Shown here: in pieces, positions 23,951 through 53,925 of the stretch
Layout of the letters: the number at the start of each line of letters is the position of its first letter
Position numbering within the stretch: position 1 is the first letter of the stretch
Origin: Sulfurirhabdus autotrophica
GTDB lineage: Bacteria; Pseudomonadota; Gammaproteobacteria; Burkholderiales; SMCO01
NCBI RefSeq assembly: GCF_004346685.1
Contig: NZ_SMCO01000007.1
Location: forward strand, 1-64,000
Reading direction: 5' to 3'
DNA: 64,000 nucleotides
The notes under the pieces: generated by a model
The model's database searches: none
Told to the model about the DNA's origin: nothing
Seen by the model: only the letters and a program-made list of their open reading frames with translations
Position numbers and translations under genes: made by a program

Positions 23951-24316
23951 ATGCTGGATATCAATAAAATGACGGCCAATGAAGAGGTACTTCATTATGA
24001 TCCTGAATTGCGTATGGATGATCTTCCGGATTGGTCTGACGACATTGCCGCAAAACTGGCTGCCAAGGAGGACATCAAACTGACTGCTGAACATCTGGAA
24101 GTACTTCACCTGCTACGCGACCACTATCGATTACATGGACACGATATGACCGGCACCAAAATGCTGAGAGCGCTGGAGGAACCTTTTGGTGCGCGTGGCG
24201 GCAGAAAATATCTATTTCAACTATTTCCCGCAGGGCCAATCAATCAGGGGAGCCGACTCGCTGGTTTGCCCCCTCCTCCGTACAGTAAAGATAATTCATT
24301 CGGCAGCGTTGAGTGA
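23951..24316 (+). CDS. DsrC/TusE-family protein lacking the redox cysteines
   Basis: 121 residues from the ATG with GGAGAGGAG upstream. The family fold is clear: DWSDDIAAKLAAKEDIKLTAEHLEVL, LRDHYRLHG and GGRKYLFQLFPAGP. In DsrC the C-terminal arm carries two Cys, and in TusE one; here the arm reads GPINQGSRLAGLPPPPYSKDNS and contains no Cys at all. It therefore cannot relay sulfur by the known mechanism. A regulatory or binding role, as suggested for Cys-less family members, fits better. It stands alone, without dsrAB or tusBCD nearby. Confidence 0.88.
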   Translation: MLDINKMTANEEVLHYDPELRMDDLPDWSDDIAAKLAAKEDIKLTAEHLEVLHLLRDHYRLHGHDMTGTKMLRALEEPFGARGGRKYLFQLFPAGPINQGSRLAGLPPPPYSKDNSFGSVE

Positions 24317-25832: not shown

Positions 25833-26096
25833 TTATAGCGCAGGTTGTTCAGTTGTGATTGCAGCTTTCATCACACTTAACGCATCATTAATGGTTTCTT
25901 CTGACGCTTCATTCAAACATTCGGCCAGCATTTCTGCGGCTTCGTAGGTTTCTTCCGGCAGTACTTCCGGGTCTAGTTCAGCAATAAACACTGCAGCGGA
26001 GCCGGCAATACGCAATAGTGCCTGACGTTCTCGCATCAGCATTTCCAGTTCACCACGCAGCATGGCGATTTCTTCGTTTTTGAGATTGAGCGACAT
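25833..26096 (-). CDS. Small helical acidic protein, unknown
   Basis: 87 residues, rich in Glu, Ala and Leu. The first half (LKNEEIAMLRGELEMLMRER) looks like a short coiled coil, then more helix with many acidic residues. No Cys, signal peptide or membrane segment. I recognise no family. It stands alone, convergent with the cold-shock gene, and 237 bases from the divergent thioredoxin-like gene. Confidence 0.6.
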   Translation of the reverse strand: MSLNLKNEEIAMLRGELEMLMRERQALLRIAGSAAVFIAELDPEVLPEETYEAAEMLAECLNEASEETINDALSVMKAAITTEQPAL

Positions 26097-26333
26097 ATGT
26101 TAAATCCTGAGTGCAATTCTGAGTGACAATGAAGTTGTTAATATGAAGGAACTGACGTGATCTGGCAACTTTCATTTATTACATTGAGTTCCTGGCGTGA
26201 AAGTCCAATAATTATACGGTGTAATAAAGCAGGGATCTATGAGGTTGCGACGGCAAGAGCAAACAGTTTGCAAAAATGCCTTGCATGGATCCAGTCTGCC
26301 TGAAGTTTTAATAGCTAATTCAGGAAAATCAAA

Positions 26334-26993
26334 GTGGAAACAACTCAACAATCCGCACTCCCGAAAATATTGCTGATGCTGGCAGAAGGATGCCCTCATT
26401 GCCCATCCGTGTTGAATCATCTTTGCCTGATGGTAAAAAACGGCGAAATTGGTCAGCTTCAGATCGTTAATATTGGCGTAGAACCGGAACTGGCAAAAAC
26501 ACTCAATGTAAAAACCGTGCCTTGGGTGCGAATTGGAGAATATGAACTGGAAGGGCTGCTTTCTCTGGGGGAACTCCGTCGTTGGGTAGATTTTGGCGGC
26601 AGTGATTTGGGCACAAAAACGTATTTCTACGAAATGCTGAAATCAGGTAAGCGGGACAAGGTTGAACGCATGATCAAGCAAAATTCCCAATACGCGAAAC
26701 TGCTGGTTGATTTATTACTGGATGAAAATGCCAGTATGGCTGTGCGTATTGGAATCGGGGCAGTGCTTGAAGAGTTTCAAGGCACAGGATTAACCGAATG
26801 CATGATCCCTGGTCTGGGTGAAATGCTGCAAAATCCAAGCCGATTAAACCGGGCCGACGCTTGTCATTTTCTTACTTTAATTGGCAGCAACGAGGTTATC
26901 CCGTACTTAAGAAAAGCATTGAATGATGATGATGCTGAGGTTCGGGAAACGGCTCAGGAAGCTTTGGAAGAGAGGGGAAAACAGGGTAATTGA
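26334..26993 (+). CDS. Thioredoxin-fold protein with HEAT-like repeats
   Basis: 219 residues, GTG start with AGGAAA upstream. Residues 10-85 form a thioredoxin-like fold with CPHC in LMLAEGCPHCPSVLNHL and a cis-Pro-like VKTVPWVRIG. Residues 95-215 are helical repeats (MAVRIGIGAVLEEFQG; NDDDAEVRETAQEALEERG) of HEAT type. The pairing suggests a redox or Fe-S/cofactor-linked adaptor. No signal peptide, so probably cytoplasmic. It lies upstream of the HTH-ferredoxin reductase gene. Confidence 0.78.
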   Translation: METTQQSALPKILLMLAEGCPHCPSVLNHLCLMVKNGEIGQLQIVNIGVEPELAKTLNVKTVPWVRIGEYELEGLLSLGELRRWVDFGGSDLGTKTYFYEMLKSGKRDKVERMIKQNSQYAKLLVDLLLDENASMAVRIGIGAVLEEFQGTGLTECMIPGLGEMLQNPSRLNRADACHFLTLIGSNEVIPYLRKALNDDDAEVRETAQEALEERGKQGN

Positions 26994-27111
26994 CGGTTAC
27001 TCTTGTTTAATGGGCTGATTCATCCTAAGATTTTACCTGTTGGTTAAAACATAATAACAATTAAGCACTCTACAGCTGCTTATGCAAGCTGCCTTGTAAT
27101 CAAGGAGGGGT

Positions 27112-28584
27112 ATGTCACAGTTATTGCCATTGTCCAGAGCCGCGCGTCTTCTAGGTGTTTCTCGCGGGGCGCTGCAAAAAAGAATTCAGGATGGCGGTTT
27201 GCCATCATTTGACGGGATGGTAGCCACAAAGGATTTGCTGCTCGCCTATCCCGACACCAAGTTTGAAGAAGATCTGGTTATTGAACGTCTCGAGCAAATT
27301 AAGGAAGAGGCATTCGCCAAGCGTGTCCGCGAACGTGCATTACCAAATAAAGAAGTGCTCGCCGCCCGGCTTTATGAACAAAGTAGAGAGCTGGCCGATG
27401 TGCGAACCCATTTGCAGCAATATCATTCGATTGTTGTTCGTACACAAGATCGTTTGCGAGTCATTCTGGAGACTGGTGCTCCGGATACACCGTCTGAGTT
27501 TGAAGAGCTTTCAGGTTGGCTGAATCAACAACTGGAGGAAGTTTTGGATACTAAAGCGCCCGATACGCTAGATGTGATGGATGACTACCTTCGCGTTGTT
27601 TCTGCGCATGTTATTTTACAACCCAGCCGGCATGAGTTCTTTGTTGATGGTGCAGATACCATACTGGAAGCCGCTCTGCGCTCAGGATTGGCGCTCAACT
27701 ATGGCTGTAGCAGCGGAAACTGTGGCTTATGCAAGGCCAGAATTGTTTCCGGGCAATCCAAGAAAGTGCGTCATCATGATTATGTGCTGAGTGAAGCGGA
27801 AAAAAATATGGGATATGCACTGATGTGCTCCCATACTGCGGTCACTGATCTCATAGTCGAAGCATTGGAAGCATCGCGTCCGGGTGATATTCCTGTTCAG
27901 GAAATACAGGCCAGAGTGAAACTGCTCGAACCGTTGACGGATAAAGTTATGCGATTGCGAGTGCAAACGCCTCGGACTAACCGCTTGCGATTTTTGGCAG
28001 GGCAAAGCGTGAAACTCAGTGTCGGTGAAATCGGGGGAGAGGCCTATTCAGTGGCAAGTTGCCCCTGTGATGACAGAAATCTGGAATTTCACATTCGCAA
28101 TTTGCCCCATGATGCATTCGCTCAGCGGGTTTTTAAAGGGCTTAAAAGTGGCGATACTGTTACAGTAGAAGGCCCTTTTGGTGACTTTGTCATGCACGAC
28201 GAATCACTTCGTTCTCCATTGCTGATTGCCTGCAATAGTGGTTTTGCACCGATAAAAAGTTTAATTGAACACACTATGGCGATCGATACAGTAGAAGATA
28301 TCTATTTATATCGGATGGCTACTTTTACCGGAGGCCACTATCAGTCCAATATTTGCCGTTCCTGGGCGGATGCACTGGACAATTTTCATTACACAGAAGT
28401 ATCAGCAGATGCATTAAGTGATGAGAGTATCAGTGAGATGCTGGAAAAAATAGGGCATGATCATCCGGATTTATCTGCGTTTGATGTTTATTTAGCCGGA
28501 CCTGAAGTGTTTGTGAGCCAAGTGAGAGAATGGCTGCAAGAACAAGGAATACCTAAAGATCAGCTGCTTTGTGCCGTTGTATAG
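27112..28584 (+). CDS. HTH / 2Fe-2S ferredoxin / flavin reductase fusion
   Basis: 490 residues, AAGGAGGGG upstream. N-terminus: LSRAARLLGVSRGALQKRIQDGGL, an excisionase/MerR-like helix-turn-helix. Residues 50-155 are helical and probably coiled coil. Then comes a plant-type 2Fe-2S domain with C199, C204, C207 and C239, followed by an FNR-type FAD/NAD(P) module (PFGDFVMHD; LIACNSGFAPIKSLIEH; VYLAGPEVFV). The reductase half resembles CDP-6-deoxy-glucoseen or phenol hydroxylase reductases. A DNA-binding domain on such an enzyme suggests redox-sensing control of genes; this is inference. No oxygenase partner is nearby. Confidence 0.85.
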   Translation: MSQLLPLSRAARLLGVSRGALQKRIQDGGLPSFDGMVATKDLLLAYPDTKFEEDLVIERLEQIKEEAFAKRVRERALPNKEVLAARLYEQSRELADVRTHLQQYHSIVVRTQDRLRVILETGAPDTPSEFEELSGWLNQQLEEVLDTKAPDTLDVMDDYLRVVSAHVILQPSRHEFFVDGADTILEAALRSGLALNYGCSSGNCGLCKARIVSGQSKKVRHHDYVLSEAEKNMGYALMCSHTAVTDLIVEALEASRPGDIPVQEIQARVKLLEPLTDKVMRLRVQTPRTNRLRFLAGQSVKLSVGEIGGEAYSVASCPCDDRNLEFHIRNLPHDAFAQRVFKGLKSGDTVTVEGPFGDFVMHDESLRSPLLIACNSGFAPIKSLIEHTMAIDTVEDIYLYRMATFTGGHYQSNICRSWADALDNFHYTEVSADALSDESISEMLEKIGHDHPDLSAFDVYLAGPEVFVSQVREWLQEQGIPKDQLLCAVV

Positions 28585-28671
28585 CTTAGCGAGCATTTTG
28601 TCTTGCCAGGGCATTGTTGTCCGCAATTTCATGTTATGTGATTGCCAAATATTGACACAATTGGAGCAACG

Positions 28672-29520
28672 ATGATTCTTCGCGCAGTGTCTCACATTTG
28701 TATGTTTGTGTTCATTGTTTTTGGGGCTTTCCCCTTGCAGACATTAGCCTCGGATACATTGCAGTTTGGCGTTCTCAATCACCGGTCCGTCATTCTTACT
28801 GCACAATTATGGAATCCAATTTTACATTATGTAAGTGAGAAAAGCGGTGTGCCCTTGTCCTTGAAAATGGGTAAGACGGCGGCTGAAACAACGAAAATGA
28901 CCGTAAACGGTGAGTTTGATTTCGTCTATACCAACCATCTTTTTACGCCCGATCGGAATAAATTGGGTTATAAGGTGATCGCGCGCCTTAATACTCAGGG
29001 CATCATGGGGCAGGTTGTAACCCTGGAAGCTTCCTCGATCAAAGCCCTTGCAGATCTTGAAGGCAAGGAAGTGGCATTTCCAACACCTGATGGCTTTACG
29101 GGCTATTGGGTGCCGATGGATGGATTATTAAGGGCAGGTATACACGTTAAACCTGTTTTCACAGGTAATCAGGAATCATCCATGGCGCGCCTGATGATGG
29201 GGGCTGTCGCTGCAGCCGGCGTGAATAGTCAGGTCATGGAAAACTATGCGAGGCGTGAAAAAATCAAGTATCGAATCTTGTATACGTCTGAGGCCTATCT
29301 TAATTTGCCAGTAATGGCTAACCCCCGCATTTCGCATGATAAGGTCGAAAAAGTGCGGCAGGCGTTGATACTGATGGCAAAGGATACCGAAGGAAAGAAA
29401 ATTCTTCAAACTGCGTCTGATATGCTGCAAAGCGAGCAAACGCTTGGCTTTGTATCGGCAGAAAACAAGGATTACGATAATTATCGTCACTTTTATCAAC
29501 ACACACTGGTCCGAGAATAA
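28672..29520 (+). CDS. PhnD-like periplasmic binding protein
   Basis: 282 residues from the ATG with GGAG upstream. Signal peptide core HICMFVFIVFGAFPLQTLA. The mature part has the phosphonate-binding-protein pattern: LQFGVLNHRSVILTAQLWNP, a Tyr/Asn ligand region (FDFVYTNHLF), GKEVAFPTPDGFTGYW and VAAAGVNSQVMENYARR. It is followed after 3 bases by the GGDEF-EAL protein and no permease or ATPase is near, so it probably senses a ligand for that protein instead of serving transport (inference). Confidence 0.87.
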   Translation: MILRAVSHICMFVFIVFGAFPLQTLASDTLQFGVLNHRSVILTAQLWNPILHYVSEKSGVPLSLKMGKTAAETTKMTVNGEFDFVYTNHLFTPDRNKLGYKVIARLNTQGIMGQVVTLEASSIKALADLEGKEVAFPTPDGFTGYWVPMDGLLRAGIHVKPVFTGNQESSMARLMMGAVAAAGVNSQVMENYARREKIKYRILYTSEAYLNLPVMANPRISHDKVEKVRQALILMAKDTEGKKILQTASDMLQSEQTLGFVSAENKDYDNYRHFYQHTLVRE

Positions 29521-49222: not shown

Positions 49223-49288
49223 GAATACAACTCCTGTTAAGTCATCATAGTATAATGAATTTTTACGCCTAACTGAAAGCCAACAATC

Positions 49289-51313
49289 ATGAACCCATTA
49301 CTCGATTTTTCCGGTCTGCCGCGTTTTAACGAAGTAAAACCTGAACTCGTCAGCCCCGCCATAGAAGCGCTGCTGAAAGAAAATCGTGCGCTGATTGAAC
49401 GCCTGCTGGCAGAAGATAGCGCGCCGAGCTGGGAAAGTTTTGTTGGCCCGATGGAAGACGCCAATGAGCATTTATCCCGAGCATGGGGTCAGGTTTCTCA
49501 CCTTAATGCAGTGGTAAACAGCCCGGAATTGCGTGAAGTCTACAATGAAAATCTCCCCAAAATTACGCAGTATTATGCAGAACTGTCGCAAAATCAGGGG
49601 CTTTACGAGAAATTCAAGCAAATTAAAGCATCCCGTGAATACATGGTGCTGACGCCAGCACAGAAAAAGATTGTAGAAAATGAGTTGCGAGACTTTCGCC
49701 TGGGCGGCGCGGAATTAGCAGATGATCAGAAAGAACGCTTCATGCAGATTCAGGAAGAGCTATCTCAGTTATCCAGTAAATTTGAAGAAAATTTGCTGGA
49801 TACCACCAATGGTTACTCGCTGATCATGGATGACAAGGCAGAACTGGCAGGCTTGCCGGATGATGCCTTGGAAGCCGCTCAGGAAGCCGCAGCCAGCGAT
49901 AATCAAACCGGCTGGAAATTTACCCTGCACGGTCCATCCTATATGCCGGTGATGCAATACGCAGAAAACCGCGAACTGCGGGAAATATTGTATCGGGCCT
50001 ATGTAACCCGTGCTTCCGAGTTTGGAAATCCGGATTGGGACAACACGGAACTGATCAACAAGATTTTGAAATTGCGTCAGGAAGCAGCCCATATGCTGGG
50101 ATTTGCCAACTATGCGGAAATTTCCCTCGCCGCCAAAATGGCCGAAACCCCCAAGCAGGTGCTGGATTTTCTCAATGATTTAGGGAAAAAAGCCAAGCCT
50201 TATGCTGAACGTGATTTAGAGGAACTGCAGCAGTTCGCCCGTGAAGAGCTGGGTATGGAAAAACTGGCTGCATGGGACATTGGTTTCGCCAGCGAAAAAT
50301 TGCGCCTGAAGCGTTACGCTTTCTCTGATCAGGAAGTGAAACAGTATTTCCCGGAAACGGTGGTCATGCCGGGCATGTTCAAAGTAGTGGAAACCATTTA
50401 CGGGTTGTCAATCAACCCCTCAAAAGCCCCTGTCTGGCACCCTGATGTGAAGTTTTTTGATATCACGGATAAAACCGGTCAACTGGTCGGTCAGTTTTAT
50501 GTCGATCTGTATGCCCGCATGAACAAACGTGGCGGCGCCTGGATGGATGATGTGATTACGCGCCGGCGTAAAGCGAAAGAAATTCAAACCCCGGTGGCGT
50601 ACCTCAACTGCAATTTCTCTGCACCAGTAGGTGGCAGACCGGCACTATTTACCCACGATGAAGTCATTACCTTGTTCCATGAGTTCGGCCACGGTTTGCA
50701 TCATCTGTTAACCAAAGTAGAAGACCTGGGTGTTTCCGGCATTAATGGTGTGGAGTGGGATGCGGTAGAACTACCCAGCCAGTTTATGGAAAACTTCTGC
50801 TGGGAATGGAATGTGCTCAAGCACATGACCAAACACGTCGAAACCGGTGAGCCGTTACCACGGGAATTGTTTGACAAAATGCTGGCTGCCAAAAACTTCC
50901 AGAGCGGTTTACAAACCATGCGCCAGATCGAGTTTTCGCTTTTCGACATGCACATGCATTACGACTACACACCCGGTGGCGATAAATCCGTACTGGATTT
51001 GATCAATGAAATTCGCCAGCAGGTTGCCGTCATCATTCCCCCGGAATTTAATCGCTTCCCTAATAATTTCTCCCATATATTTGCGGGTGGTTACGCGGCT
51101 GGCTATTACAGCTACAAATGGGCAGAAGTGCTCTCTGCGGATGCTTATAGTCTGTTTGAAGAAAACGGTGTGTTAAGTGAAGAAGTTGGGCACCGTTTCT
51201 GGAGTGAAATTCTGGGTGTGGGGGGTAGTCGTTCTGCACTGGAGTCTTTTGTCGCGTTTATGGGACGGGAGCCGTCGATCGATGCGTTGCTGCGCCATAA
51301 TGGGATGAGTTGA
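49289..51313 (+). CDS. prlC: Oligopeptidase A (M3 family)
   Basis: 674 residues, similar in size to E. coli PrlC. The zinc site HEFGHGLHH (HExxH) lies in TLFHEFGHGLHHLLT, with the third ligand in GVEWDAVELPSQFMENF. It cleaves short peptides such as signal peptide remnants. ATG start, no signal peptide. A degraded copy of its last 85 codons lies at 52140-52415. Confidence 0.96.
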   Translation: MNPLLDFSGLPRFNEVKPELVSPAIEALLKENRALIERLLAEDSAPSWESFVGPMEDANEHLSRAWGQVSHLNAVVNSPELREVYNENLPKITQYYAELSQNQGLYEKFKQIKASREYMVLTPAQKKIVENELRDFRLGGAELADDQKERFMQIQEELSQLSSKFEENLLDTTNGYSLIMDDKAELAGLPDDALEAAQEAAASDNQTGWKFTLHGPSYMPVMQYAENRELREILYRAYVTRASEFGNPDWDNTELINKILKLRQEAAHMLGFANYAEISLAAKMAETPKQVLDFLNDLGKKAKPYAERDLEELQQFAREELGMEKLAAWDIGFASEKLRLKRYAFSDQEVKQYFPETVVMPGMFKVVETIYGLSINPSKAPVWHPDVKFFDITDKTGQLVGQFYVDLYARMNKRGGAWMDDVITRRRKAKEIQTPVAYLNCNFSAPVGGRPALFTHDEVITLFHEFGHGLHHLLTKVEDLGVSGINGVEWDAVELPSQFMENFCWEWNVLKHMTKHVETGEPLPRELFDKMLAAKNFQSGLQTMRQIEFSLFDMHMHYDYTPGGDKSVLDLINEIRQQVAVIIPPEFNRFPNNFSHIFAGGYAAGYYSYKWAEVLSADAYSLFEENGVLSEEVGHRFWSEILGVGGSRSALESFVAFMGREPSIDALLRHNGMS

Positions 51314-51327
51314 TTCTATCAGGTGTA

Positions 51328-51359
51328 ATATGCCTGTTTCATCTGTTAAACAGGCATAT
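51328..51359. terminator. 12-bp perfect hairpin after prlC
   Basis: ATATGCCTGTTT (51328-51339) and AAACAGGCATAT (51348-51359) are exact complements with an 8-base loop, 15 bases after the prlC stop. No T tract. Confidence 0.55.
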
Positions 51360-51432
51360 GCTAGAATTAAGGCGCTTGATCGATTACAAGATTAGGGATT
51401 GGTTGTATTATTGGCACGCAAAGTCCTTTGCT

Positions 51433-51936
51433 TTAATAAAAAGCATCATTCTTCCTTGCCCTGCGCTCTGCTATTGCCTTTTGTTGCTCTTGGGGAGTAA
51501 TTGGCGTATCCAATATTTTGTTTTCTTCGATGACTTTCGGATCCCTACATCGGACACCGTGATTGGCCTCACAATCCGCGATTAGTTTTTTTTCCTGCTG
51601 CTTACGAAATTGGTCAGCATCTTCATGACTACTATTACTGCTAGCTTGAGTACTGGGTGCTTGGCTATCACGCCTGCGCTCAAGGTCTTGAACCACCTTT
51701 TTTTCGTTCAAAACGCGGCGGTGAGCTTCCGCCGAAGACTCGCTGGAGATTCCTGCATTGATCTGTAGAGTCTTACCTCCGGAGGTGCATGGGGTTGCTT
51801 GATAGGTTGTTTTTCCGTTTACCACACATTTGAAAACTTCCGCAGCATATACATGTTGAAACCAAGTTGCGGACAGGAAGATTACTGCAAGGGCTTTCAG
51901 TACTTGCATGGTGTCTACAGTGGTGTTTCGACTCAT
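51433..51936 (-). CDS. DUF4124-domain periplasmic protein
   Basis: 167 residues; ATG with AAGGA 11 bases upstream, or the ATG nine codons on. Signal peptide LKALAVIFLSATWFQHVYAA. The DUF4124 part follows: EVFKCVVNGKTTYQATPCTSGGK. The rest is charged with a helical stretch (EAHRRVLNEKKVVQDLERRR). A second Cys pair (DCEANHGVRC) is in the tail. Such proteins are common small periplasmic proteins of unknown role. It sits in the small island between prlC and ovoB. Confidence 0.75.
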   Translation of the reverse strand: MSRNTTVDTMQVLKALAVIFLSATWFQHVYAAEVFKCVVNGKTTYQATPCTSGGKTLQINAGISSESSAEAHRRVLNEKKVVQDLERRRDSQAPSTQASSNSSHEDADQFRKQQEKKLIADCEANHGVRCRDPKVIEENKILDTPITPQEQQKAIAERRARKNDAFY

Positions 51937-52134
51937 GGTTCGTTTAATCCTTCTTCAGAGTAGCTTCGCAAATAGAGAATCGGTAATGCCCACACCGAAT
52001 ATTGGTTTACCGAAATGTCGGCTTACAGTGAAACATTCTGCGCGACGGTTGATAAAAAATCAATTTACGCGGGATATTAGTATCCTTGTTATAGGGTTTC
52101 CTGCATAAACAAAATATTTCCTGGAGAATCCATG

Positions 52135-52415
52135 TGACGAGGCGATCCAATATTTAACCGCTTCCCCAATAATTTATCCCCTAACTTAGTGGGTGATTAC
52201 GCAGGGAGCAATTACAGCTACAAGTGGGCAGACTATAGCCTGTTTGAAGAAAATAGTGTGTTAAGTGAAGAAGTAGGATAGCGTTTTTGGAGTGAAATAC
52301 TAGGTGTGGGTGGAAGCCGTTCAGCACTGGAGTTATTTGTCGCGTATATGGGATGGGAACCGTCGATCGATGCGTTGTTGCGGCATAATGGGATGAGCTG
52401 ATTCTATCTGATATA
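52135..52415 (+). pseudogene. Decayed chimeric remnant: ovoB tail plus prlC 3' end
   Basis: 52162-52402 aligns to the last part of prlC (51070-51313) with many changes: a stop (GGATAG for GGGCAC), an 18-base deletion and several substitutions; the match runs past the stop into GATTCTATC. The left edge, 52135-52161, matches 54051-54077 (inside ovoB, same orientation on the plus strand) at 24 of 27 bases. The join lies at the shared ATTTAACCGC. It codes for nothing functional. Confidence 0.85.
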
Positions 52416-52677
52416 GTCTTCTTATCTATAGACAGCAGTGTGCCAAAACCTGTCGTTTGGATCTTCATTCGTTAGCAGCTAGTCCGTAATAGCTTGATTG
52501 AAAACAGTGGCGTATTATTCAGGTGCATCATATGCAAAAAAAATAATGCCAAATCGTACAAGCAAGTGTGCGACTTCGCTCTTTCCTGTCATTGCTCTAG
52601 GCAGTAAGACCGCACAGTGCCCGTCACCTCTACCTTGAAGTTGTAAGAATCTTGTTTTCACAGCCGGATAAATAGAA

Positions 52678-53925
52678 ATGACGAAAAAGATGACCACAGA
52701 CGAGTTTAAGTTGAAGGCATCGGAAGTACATGGTAAGCGCTATGACTATTCTGAGTCGGTCATAATTAACACAAAAACAAAGGTAAAAATTGTTTGCCAG
52801 GAACATGGTCTTTTTGAGCAAACCCCAGCTAACCATTTACAGGGTATGGGTTGCTTGCTTTGCGGCTTCAAGAACGCAGGGCAATATCACAAGAAGGACA
52901 CCAAATCATTCATCGAAGAAGCTAAGGCCATACACAGTGACTTTTATGACTACTCTCTATCACAATACAAAGGCGCTAGAGAAAAAATAACTATCATATG
53001 TCCTAAGCACGGTAATTTTGAGCAAGTTGCCCATGTTCATTTGCGAAATAGTGTTGGCGCAGGGTGTGAACGCTGTTCTTATGAGAAACGAGGCGAGCAT
53101 TCAAGAATGCCCTTTGAGGAGTTTCGGTGCCGTGCGAATGAAGTTCATGAAGGTTTTTATGACTATTCTGCTGCCGAGAAGGAATTCGCCAGCACAACCG
53201 ATAAAATCACGATCATATGCACACTCCATGGACCATTTCTTCAGACCCCTAGCGGACATCTTGCCGGAAGGGGGTGTTCGGCCTGTAGTGCCTCTCGACT
53301 ATCCTATAAATTCATAAAATCAAATGACGCGTTTATTCGTGACGCTAGAAAAGTTCATGGAGACAAATACGACTATTCAAAGGTTGAGTACGCCGGCGCG
53401 TTCATAGGTGTTGAAATAAGCTGTCCGCTCGATGGTGTTTTTGTGCAGAGTCCGACTAGTCACCTAAGTGGAATAGGATGCCCGAAATGTAGTCGGCGAA
53501 ATCAAGGGGCGCCGAGGAACTTGACTCGCGCACTACGAGGTGAGTTTGACGACGGCAAAGAAGCGTTCGTCTATGTTGTTAGCTTTAAGCTGCCTTGTAC
53601 TAACTTATTTCTGTACAAAATTGGCAGTGGGACCGGTAGTCGAATGAAAACGGTGATTAACGAAATAAAGCGTGTTGGAGGGTACGACCCAACAATTAGC
53701 CACTGCCTTTTCTCCAGCACAGGGGAAGCCATTGTGTTTGAGCACTTAGCTCATGAACAAGTGCGTCACCATCAATTCATCGTCCCAATTGAATTCAAGT
53801 TTCATGGCCATTCAGAAGTATTTGTGAAATCACCGATTCTTGATGCCCTTGAGAATCACCCTACTCTAACGATATTCCGATCAGGCAAACGGTGGGACCC
53901 AAGGGTTACAAATAGCAGCAAATGA
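52678..53925 (+). CDS. Four DUF723-like repeats with GIY-YIG-like C-terminus
   Basis: 415 residues. Four similar units of about 60-70 residues (about 6-62, 72-130, 143-203, 215-275) with the pattern FxxxAxxVHGxxYDYS...KITIICPxHGxFxQ...HLxGxGCxxC; each has a Cys, a CxxC-like pair and His that could bind zinc. From about 285 comes EAFVYVVSFKLPCTNLFLYKIGSG, which resembles the start of GIY-YIG-type (MUG113/T5orf172-like) domains, ending with an acidic/basic mix. Such proteins are known from phages and mobile DNA. It is alone, next to the prlC/ovoB scar. Function unknown; DNA binding or cleavage is a guess. Confidence 0.75.
   Translation: MTKKMTTDEFKLKASEVHGKRYDYSESVIINTKTKVKIVCQEHGLFEQTPANHLQGMGCLLCGFKNAGQYHKKDTKSFIEEAKAIHSDFYDYSLSQYKGAREKITIICPKHGNFEQVAHVHLRNSVGAGCERCSYEKRGEHSRMPFEEFRCRANEVHEGFYDYSAAEKEFASTTDKITIICTLHGPFLQTPSGHLAGRGCSACSASRLSYKFIKSNDAFIRDARKVHGDKYDYSKVEYAGAFIGVEISCPLDGVFVQSPTSHLSGIGCPKCSRRNQGAPRNLTRALRGEFDDGKEAFVYVVSFKLPCTNLFLYKIGSGTGSRMKTVINEIKRVGGYDPTISHCLFSSTGEAIVFEHLAHEQVRHHQFIVPIEFKFHGHSEVFVKSPILDALENHPTLTIFRSGKRWDPRVTNSSK

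Follow-up and report, generated by a model that had tools for sequence, protein, structure and literature searches.

Domain layout of the fusion gene and its surroundings

One gene of the window (the whole 64,000-nt stretch of DNA that was analysed) encodes a 490-aa fusion of an HTH-type fold with a [2Fe-2S] ferredoxin-reductase-type module (Table 1). A Pfam scan of this protein returned Fer2 (aa 169-241, E 9.6e-12), FAD_binding_6 (aa 273-359, E 1.2e-8), and NAD_binding_1 (aa 371-472, 23.2 bits against a cutoff of 22), and the reductase module is therefore solid. By sequence and fold, the C-terminal two-thirds of the protein belong to the BenC group of ferredoxin reductases; the overall BenC-type fold is present, as indicated by the Foldseek match of the reductase part to 1krh_A (E 6.5e-25). 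The four Fe-S cysteines reported in the earlier note (C199, C204, C207, and C239, with X4-X2-X31 spacing) are borne out by the alignment, where each of them is conserved in 90 of 90 fusion homologues. Helices at residues 55-74, 80-120, and 127-145 connect the HTH to Fer2 in the full-length predicted model (71 sequences, mean pLDDT 85.0, pTM 0.67), whose residues 51-80 are of low confidence.

Table 1. Features of the fusion gene and of its neighbours, in window coordinates
Feature	Position	Strand	Basis or remark
490-aa fusion ORF: wHTH, helices, Fer2, and pseudo-ferredoxin-reductase	27112..28584	+	Single gene, ATG start
Predicted winged HTH (wHTH), excisionase/MerR type, aa 1-50; short wing SFDGMV with acidic D34	27112..27261	+	Predicted structure, alignment, charge comparison
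Strongly kept N-terminal stretch around IKExAFxKRxxER, aa 62-75	27295..27336	+	Alignments
Long helices, predicted linker/dimer region, aa 80-160	27349..27591	+	Secondary structure of predicted model
Plant-type [2Fe-2S] domain, aa 165-250; Cys codons at 27706, 27721, 27730, and 27826	27604..27861	+	Pfam, alignment
FAD-binding-type barrel, flavin motif degraded, aa 263-360	27898..28191	+	Pfam, alignment, fold
Glu310, site of the RxYS Arg	28039..28041	+	Alignment
Cys317-Pro-Cys319 (CPC) dithiol	28060..28068	+	Alignment
NAD-binding-type domain, aa 371-486; glycine signature degraded (CNSG, 28231-28242); YxCG Cys site is Ala462	28222..28569	+	Pfam, alignment
Thioredoxin (CPHC) + HEAT protein, candidate partner	26334..26993	+	Thioredoxin_3 and HEAT_2, both over Pfam cutoff
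87-aa protein, recurs near the fusion (8/78 loci)	25833..26096	-	Neighbourhood count
DsrC-family paralogue without cysteines, 2.8 kb upstream of the fusion	23951..24316	+	Pfam, sequence

At the N terminus, profile matches were sub-threshold for HTH_17 (aa 10-33, 15.5 bits, cutoff 27) and HTH_8 (16.9 bits, cutoff 22) in Pfam and for the "excise" family in NCBIfam (14.7, cutoff 28.8), and a profile search of PDB sequences gave nothing usable, its best match (E 0.0046) being a designed helical protein. When residues 1-112 were modelled with AlphaFold (49 sequences, mean pLDDT 81.5, pTM 0.42), the predicted structure aligned over 46-49 residues with phage Pukovnik Xis and BldC at a Z of about 6 (6.1 over 46-47 residues, rmsd 1.4-1.6), within the range below 8 in which similarity can reflect a common arrangement. 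MerR proteins, CbpM, BldC, RacA, and Xis were the top Foldseek matches, none of them with E up to 0.001. Because of the middling Z and these Foldseek values, we place moderate weight on the assignment of the N terminus to a wHTH fold of the MerR/excisionase type; it is the predicted structure that supports the excisionase-like HTH put forward in the earlier note.

Residues R18 and Q22, both in the predicted second (recognition) helix, are kept in all 90 fusion homologues and, like the wHTH fold, speak for DNA binding. Two features speak against it. Wing position 34 is equally invariant in character, being Asp or Glu in every homologue, so that the wing is acidic there and not basic as in a DNA-contacting wing. 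In addition, residues 1-52 carry a median net charge of 0 in the wHTH family versus +2 in 18 MerR_1/HTH_17 controls, which were drawn from 4 of 5 MerR_1 and 15 of 27 HTH_17 loci of the own and related genomes after one of the 19 had been dropped because of stops in frame. A scan for sigma-70 promoters and terminators at 26100-28800 yielded hits at shuffle level only.

Degenerate reductase motifs and the Cys-Pro-Cys pair

The N-terminal profile identified 107 ORFs in the fetched loci, of which 103 had at least 400 aa; removal of identical C termini left 90 nonredundant fusions, window protein included, for a joint alignment with 30 comparison reductases. Passages of a study on ThnY define RxYS as the flavin motif and GGXGXXP as the NAD(P)H signature (PMC3771892). 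The complete flavin motif, R-x-[YF]-[ST], occurs in none of the 90 fusions versus 25 of the 30 comparison reductases. Its Arg alone persists in two fusions (L054 and L065, with Leu-Pro replacing Tyr-Ser) compared with 27 of the 30, and the Ser site is occupied by Pro in 71 of the fusions and by Ser in 29 of the comparison proteins. The NAD signature is partly eroded: position 375 is Asp in 62 and Gly in 15 of the 90 fusions, against Gly in 28 of 30 comparison reductases, and Gly377 and Pro380 are kept in 86 and 88 fusions, respectively. At the Cys site of YxCG (462), 85 fusions have Ala, whereas 27 comparison reductases have Cys.

Cys317 and Cys319 are present in all 90 fusions, and the residue between them is Pro in 89. 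Only two of the 30 comparison reductases have a Cys-x-Cys at this place (L143 and L144), and both are split members of the same clade. As read from these alignments, the family appears to be one of pseudo-reductases with a dithiol beside the former flavin site, and the fusion protein is unlikely to act as an NAD(P)H-dependent flavin reductase. The invariant dithiol is missing from the earlier note, as is the link to reverse-Dsr sulfur oxidation documented below, which is the strongest clue.

A tree of 96 reductase domains placed 52 fused or split CPC proteins on one side of a branch with support of 100/99, and all 52 have Cys-Pro-Cys. All 33 fused members group together with the HTH-less protein L143 (96/80), which is the sister of the window protein (99/94) and thus looks like a case of HTH loss. 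The L143 gene (7532-8512, genome G049) has a thioredoxin-HEAT neighbour, and a full fusion lies elsewhere in the same genome.

Distribution of fused and split forms and association with dsrA

Profile searches detected the N-terminal domain in 69 of 399 genomes of the order, across 15 numbered genome families; in a phylum set of 200 genomes, it was found in the own genome and as two weak matches (E 2.6e-9 and 1.4e-8). The fusion is recurrent: a scan of named genomes with one short pattern, which is no census, gave 77 loci under titles including Sulfuricella, Gallionella, Sideroxydans, and Rhodocyclaceae. Full-length homologues aligned from six other genomes share 44-53% identity with the window protein. 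Since many genomes share this very combination of N-terminal domain and reductase, the fusion is not due to chance.

At class level, the N-terminal domain is also encoded on its own, in proteins of ~140-180 aa. Five gammaproteobacterial loci (L156, L158, L160, L162, and L166) have such an HTH gene directly beside a separate CPC reductase gene, the adjacency in L160 being deduced from gene coordinates. The genomes searched for split forms, and the dsrA-less ones searched for related reductases, were hand-picked. Among 14 with a stand-alone HTH, 10 encode a CPC reductase somewhere and four do not (G454, G590, G500, and G506; E up to 1e-30), and among 14 dsrA genomes without the HTH gene, a CPC reductase was found in one (G144) at the same threshold. 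Of 55 class genomes that lack both dsrA and the HTH gene, 19 have a related reductase (E up to 1e-25) and none has a CPC, with G436 too short to tell. In L155, L159, L168, L169, and L170, stand-alone HTH genes follow a gene for a conserved 136-aa type protein (n4); in four of the five, they also follow genes for a protein of a 111-aa type (n7) and for a large protein that by eye looks oxidoreductase-like (n2).

Within the order, dsrA is present in 69 of 69 genomes with the fusion gene versus 18 of 330 others (Fisher 6e-61, a value that overstates the independent evidence because the genomes share ancestry), and none of the 312 genomes without dsrA has the fusion gene. These counts rest on dsrA matches at E <1e-80 (87 genomes); relaxing the threshold to E 0.001 gives matches in 217 of the 399 genomes, many of which are weak. 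In G014, G160, and G260, dsrA is fragmented and under the curated cutoff, and the strict cutoff gives 84 genomes and 66 of 69. At class level, dsrA occurs in 52 of 57 HTH genomes, a count that leaves out the weak hits in G474, G490, G526, G661, and G668 (E 1.9e-5 to 2.5e-4); 51 genomes have dsrA alone, and 213 have neither. The five HTH genomes of the class without a dsrA match all carry a full fusion with CPC, and three of them are assemblies 72-81% complete. As 18 genomes of the order and 51 of the class possess dsrA without the fusion gene, the latter is not essential to the pathway everywhere.

The earlier note had suggested a search for conserved gene neighbours, and these were found. Of 78 loci (the window and the 77 above), 21 have DsrC-family genes near the fusion, true DsrC included, and 15 have a thioredoxin-HEAT gene, on the opposite strand in 14 of them. 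The window neighbour that had been taken for a thioredoxin-HEAT protein is confirmed as such by its Pfam matches. Across a hand-picked sample (40 of the 69 fusion genomes, 17 of the 18 dsrA-only genomes, and 23 others), thioredoxin-HEAT matches at E <1e-30 were obtained in 26 of the 40 fusion genomes, in two of the 17 dsrA-only ones, and in none of the 23 without dsrA, leaving uncounted matches of ~1e-12 to 1e-14 that involve mainly the HEAT part (G020, G149, and G186). DsrC paralogues with few or no cysteines are recurrent neighbours of the fusion. A regulatory role is presumed for DsrC proteins that lack cysteines.

Genes of dsr type other than the DsrC family occur in the fetched flank of 22 of the 78 loci, L108 having only a DsrN-like gene; the other 56 show none, some of the flanks being short. 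By NCBIfam, the locus representatives of DsrK, DsrB, and DsrO score over the curated cutoff, those of DsrM, DsrP, and DsrJ have these families as best matches below cutoff, and the DsrN-like one is a CobB-type synthase; the DsrL-like cluster was named without a profile. Locus L066 shows the order dsrM, K, L-like, J, O, P, N-like, DUF4202, cysG, and fusion, and a cysG-type gene lies directly upstream of the fusion on the same strand in 10 of 77 loci. Passages of the Dsr literature (PMC11406059 and PMC3397948) do not name the fusion gene.

In the own genome, the dsr cluster resides on another contig than the fusion gene of the window. There, a DUF6967-like/Cas6-like/Cys-less DsrC/c53/TauD-like block (L214, C6, record 49276-53003), whose genes were named by similarity to proteins profile-scanned elsewhere, is divergent to dsrA. 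In L037, the corresponding block of DUF6967, Cas6, Cys-less DsrC, c53, and TauD genes runs directly into the fusion gene. The block is complete in these two cases and present in parts in L049 and L061; the Cas6-type protein in it is unexplained.

Dyad searches upstream of the fusion genes and of dsrA revealed no conserved operator for the fusion protein. Upstream of the 90 fusion genes, any dyad (5+5 bases, spacers of 0-14) was common to at most four sequences, and the maxima in 20 shuffles were 3 or 4. Upstream of dsrA, TACCC-N5-GGGTA was shared by 4 of 20 fusion genomes, against a shuffle maximum of 2. When scored, however, the dsrA dyad was equally good in 17 dsrA genomes without the fusion and in 20 with it (Mann-Whitney p 0.79), and we therefore do not credit it to the fusion protein; perhaps it is the site of another regulator. 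A dyad near TACyCC-N4/5-GGGTAG is found in many genomes with or without the fusion gene (L214-L233 and L234-L250), ~125-305 bases upstream of dsrA, with distances measured to the beginning of the dsrA profile match rather than to a verified start codon.

Candidate functions and comparison with known systems

The enzyme part looks switched off, and the gene is nearly restricted to reverse-Dsr sulfur oxidisers; the fusion protein is thus probably a sensor or relay for this pathway and not an ordinary enzyme. We favour a switch for Dsr-based sulfur oxidation that responds to redox state or sulfane sulfur, a reading to which we assign somewhat less than an even chance. The [2Fe-2S] cluster, the CPC pair, or both would receive electrons or persulfide sulfur from the Dsr system, possibly by way of the thioredoxin-HEAT protein, for which thiol exchange with the CPC is a guess. 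The resulting change in the pseudo-reductase may alter the wHTH via the helical linker, and the wHTH would in turn control transcription or a partner protein, much as has been proposed for ThnY, except that here a single chain would include the regulatory domain. In its fullest form, the proposal is that of an undescribed one-chain regulator of the reverse-Dsr pathway, in which a dead ferredoxin reductase serves as the sensor, the [2Fe-2S] cluster and Cys-Pro-Cys read redox state or sulfane sulfur and drive the wHTH, and two adjacent genes do the same elsewhere; this we advance tentatively, as the less probable side of the question.

Several findings argue for the switch, namely, the loss of motifs with the Fe-S cysteines intact and a new invariant CPC, the co-occurrence with dsrA together with dsr-type genes in 22 of 78 flanks, and the Dsr-linked block that is divergent to dsrA in the own genome and ends at the fusion in L037. 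The adjacent split pairs of HTH and CPC reductase, the wHTH fold, and the ThnY precedent point in the same direction. Against it we count the missing operator, the low charge of the wHTH, its acidic wing, and HTH profiles below cutoff, as well as the 56 flanks without dsr-type genes beyond DsrC and the dsrA genomes without the fusion. The fold match to CbpM also weighs against a switch, since it implies that such a fold can serve protein contact, and the ThnY precedent is itself imperfect: ThnY keeps FAD and RxYS, and the fusion family has no complete flavin motif.

The main rival, possible though doubtful and poorly distinguished from the switch by the present data, is that the protein relays rather than regulates. 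Its cluster and CPC would carry electrons or persulfide and, along with the thioredoxin-HEAT protein, act upon a protein of the Dsr pathway, and the wHTH and helices would be only a dimerization or docking module, as in CbpM. The invariance of the Fe-S cysteines and of Cys-x-Cys suits such a carrier, as do the enrichment of thioredoxin-HEAT genes in fusion genomes over both dsrA-only and dsrA-less ones, the position of the HTH-less L143 gene beside one of them, and the acidic wing, low charge, and CbpM match of the wHTH. However, a stand-alone HTH without any detected CPC reductase in 4 of the 14 genomes tested suggests that the HTH has a role of its own, and the strict conservation of R18 and Q22 in the predicted recognition helix also counts against this alternative. 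A factor for assembly of the Dsr system, e.g., for siroheme or Fe-S cluster insertion, is improbable: it would account for the cysG-type gene directly upstream of the fusion and for the Mrp/ApbC (NUBPL-type) and DsrN-like genes in the cysG-type clusters, but among 19 gene maps cysG or Mrp appeared only in those of the L063/L066/L071 type. The working flavin reductase of the earlier note, binding DNA and sensing NAD(P)H, is very unlikely and is rejected as the main reading because of the flavin and NAD motif losses (R-x-[YF]-[ST] in none of the fusions, Gly375 in 15, and the YxCG Cys changed to Ala in 85), although domain order, Pfam matches, and the closest solved structures, reductases such as BenC, would suit it.

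To our knowledge, little is known outside Allochromatium about how sulfur supply and redox state tune Dsr-based sulfur oxidation. A conserved protein that follows dsrA this closely and has an Fe-S cluster, a new dithiol, and an HTH would offer a direct handle on this tuning and would clearly exemplify the conversion of a flavoenzyme scaffold into a sensor; its split and fused forms make both halves testable apart. Our literature search, with most subscription journals outside its scope, found no paper on a protein combining an HTH with a CPC pseudo-reductase.

Four known systems come closest. CbpM resembles the HTH and helices through a weak fold match (PDB 3ucs), but that structure was solved in complex with a J-domain and the match has no reductase part. 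BenC and the carbazole and toluene oxygenase reductases share the fold and domain order of approximately aa 165-490, with 21-24% identity in the fold matches; the fusion differs from them in its degraded flavin and NAD motifs, its CPC, and its N-terminal wHTH and helices. SoxR, whose structures are among the fold matches, likewise combines a MerR-type wHTH and a [2Fe-2S] cluster on one chain. The SoxR cluster is bound in a short C-terminal stretch, whereas the fusion has a full plant-type ferredoxin domain (Fer2-type motif) with a reductase scaffold, an acidic wing, and no SoxR-type C-terminal motif. The fourth is ThnY of Sphingomonas macrogolitabida, described in passages of PMC3771892 as a BenC-like [2Fe-2S] iron-sulfur flavoprotein in which the first two Gly of GGXGXXP are Asn. 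According to the same passages, it is very inefficient with pyridine nucleotides, retains Arg137 and Tyr139 of RxYS, and is proposed to act on the activator ThnR through contact, and variants in its Fe-S and NAD domains alter regulation (PMC3771892). ThnY and the fusion are alike in their plant-type [2Fe-2S], FAD-type, and NAD-type domains and degraded NAD glycine signature, and the role proposed for the fusion is, as in ThnY, regulatory rather than obviously catalytic. ThnY, as far as those passages go, keeps RxYS and FAD and acts on a separate LysR-type protein, ThnR, in tetralin catabolism; the fusion, in contrast, has a broken flavin motif, has gained the CPC, and has its predicted wHTH fused or encoded by an adjacent gene. 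Ferredoxin-reductase-like redox regulators are already known, and what is new here is the link of a putative regulator of this type to the reverse-Dsr pathway.
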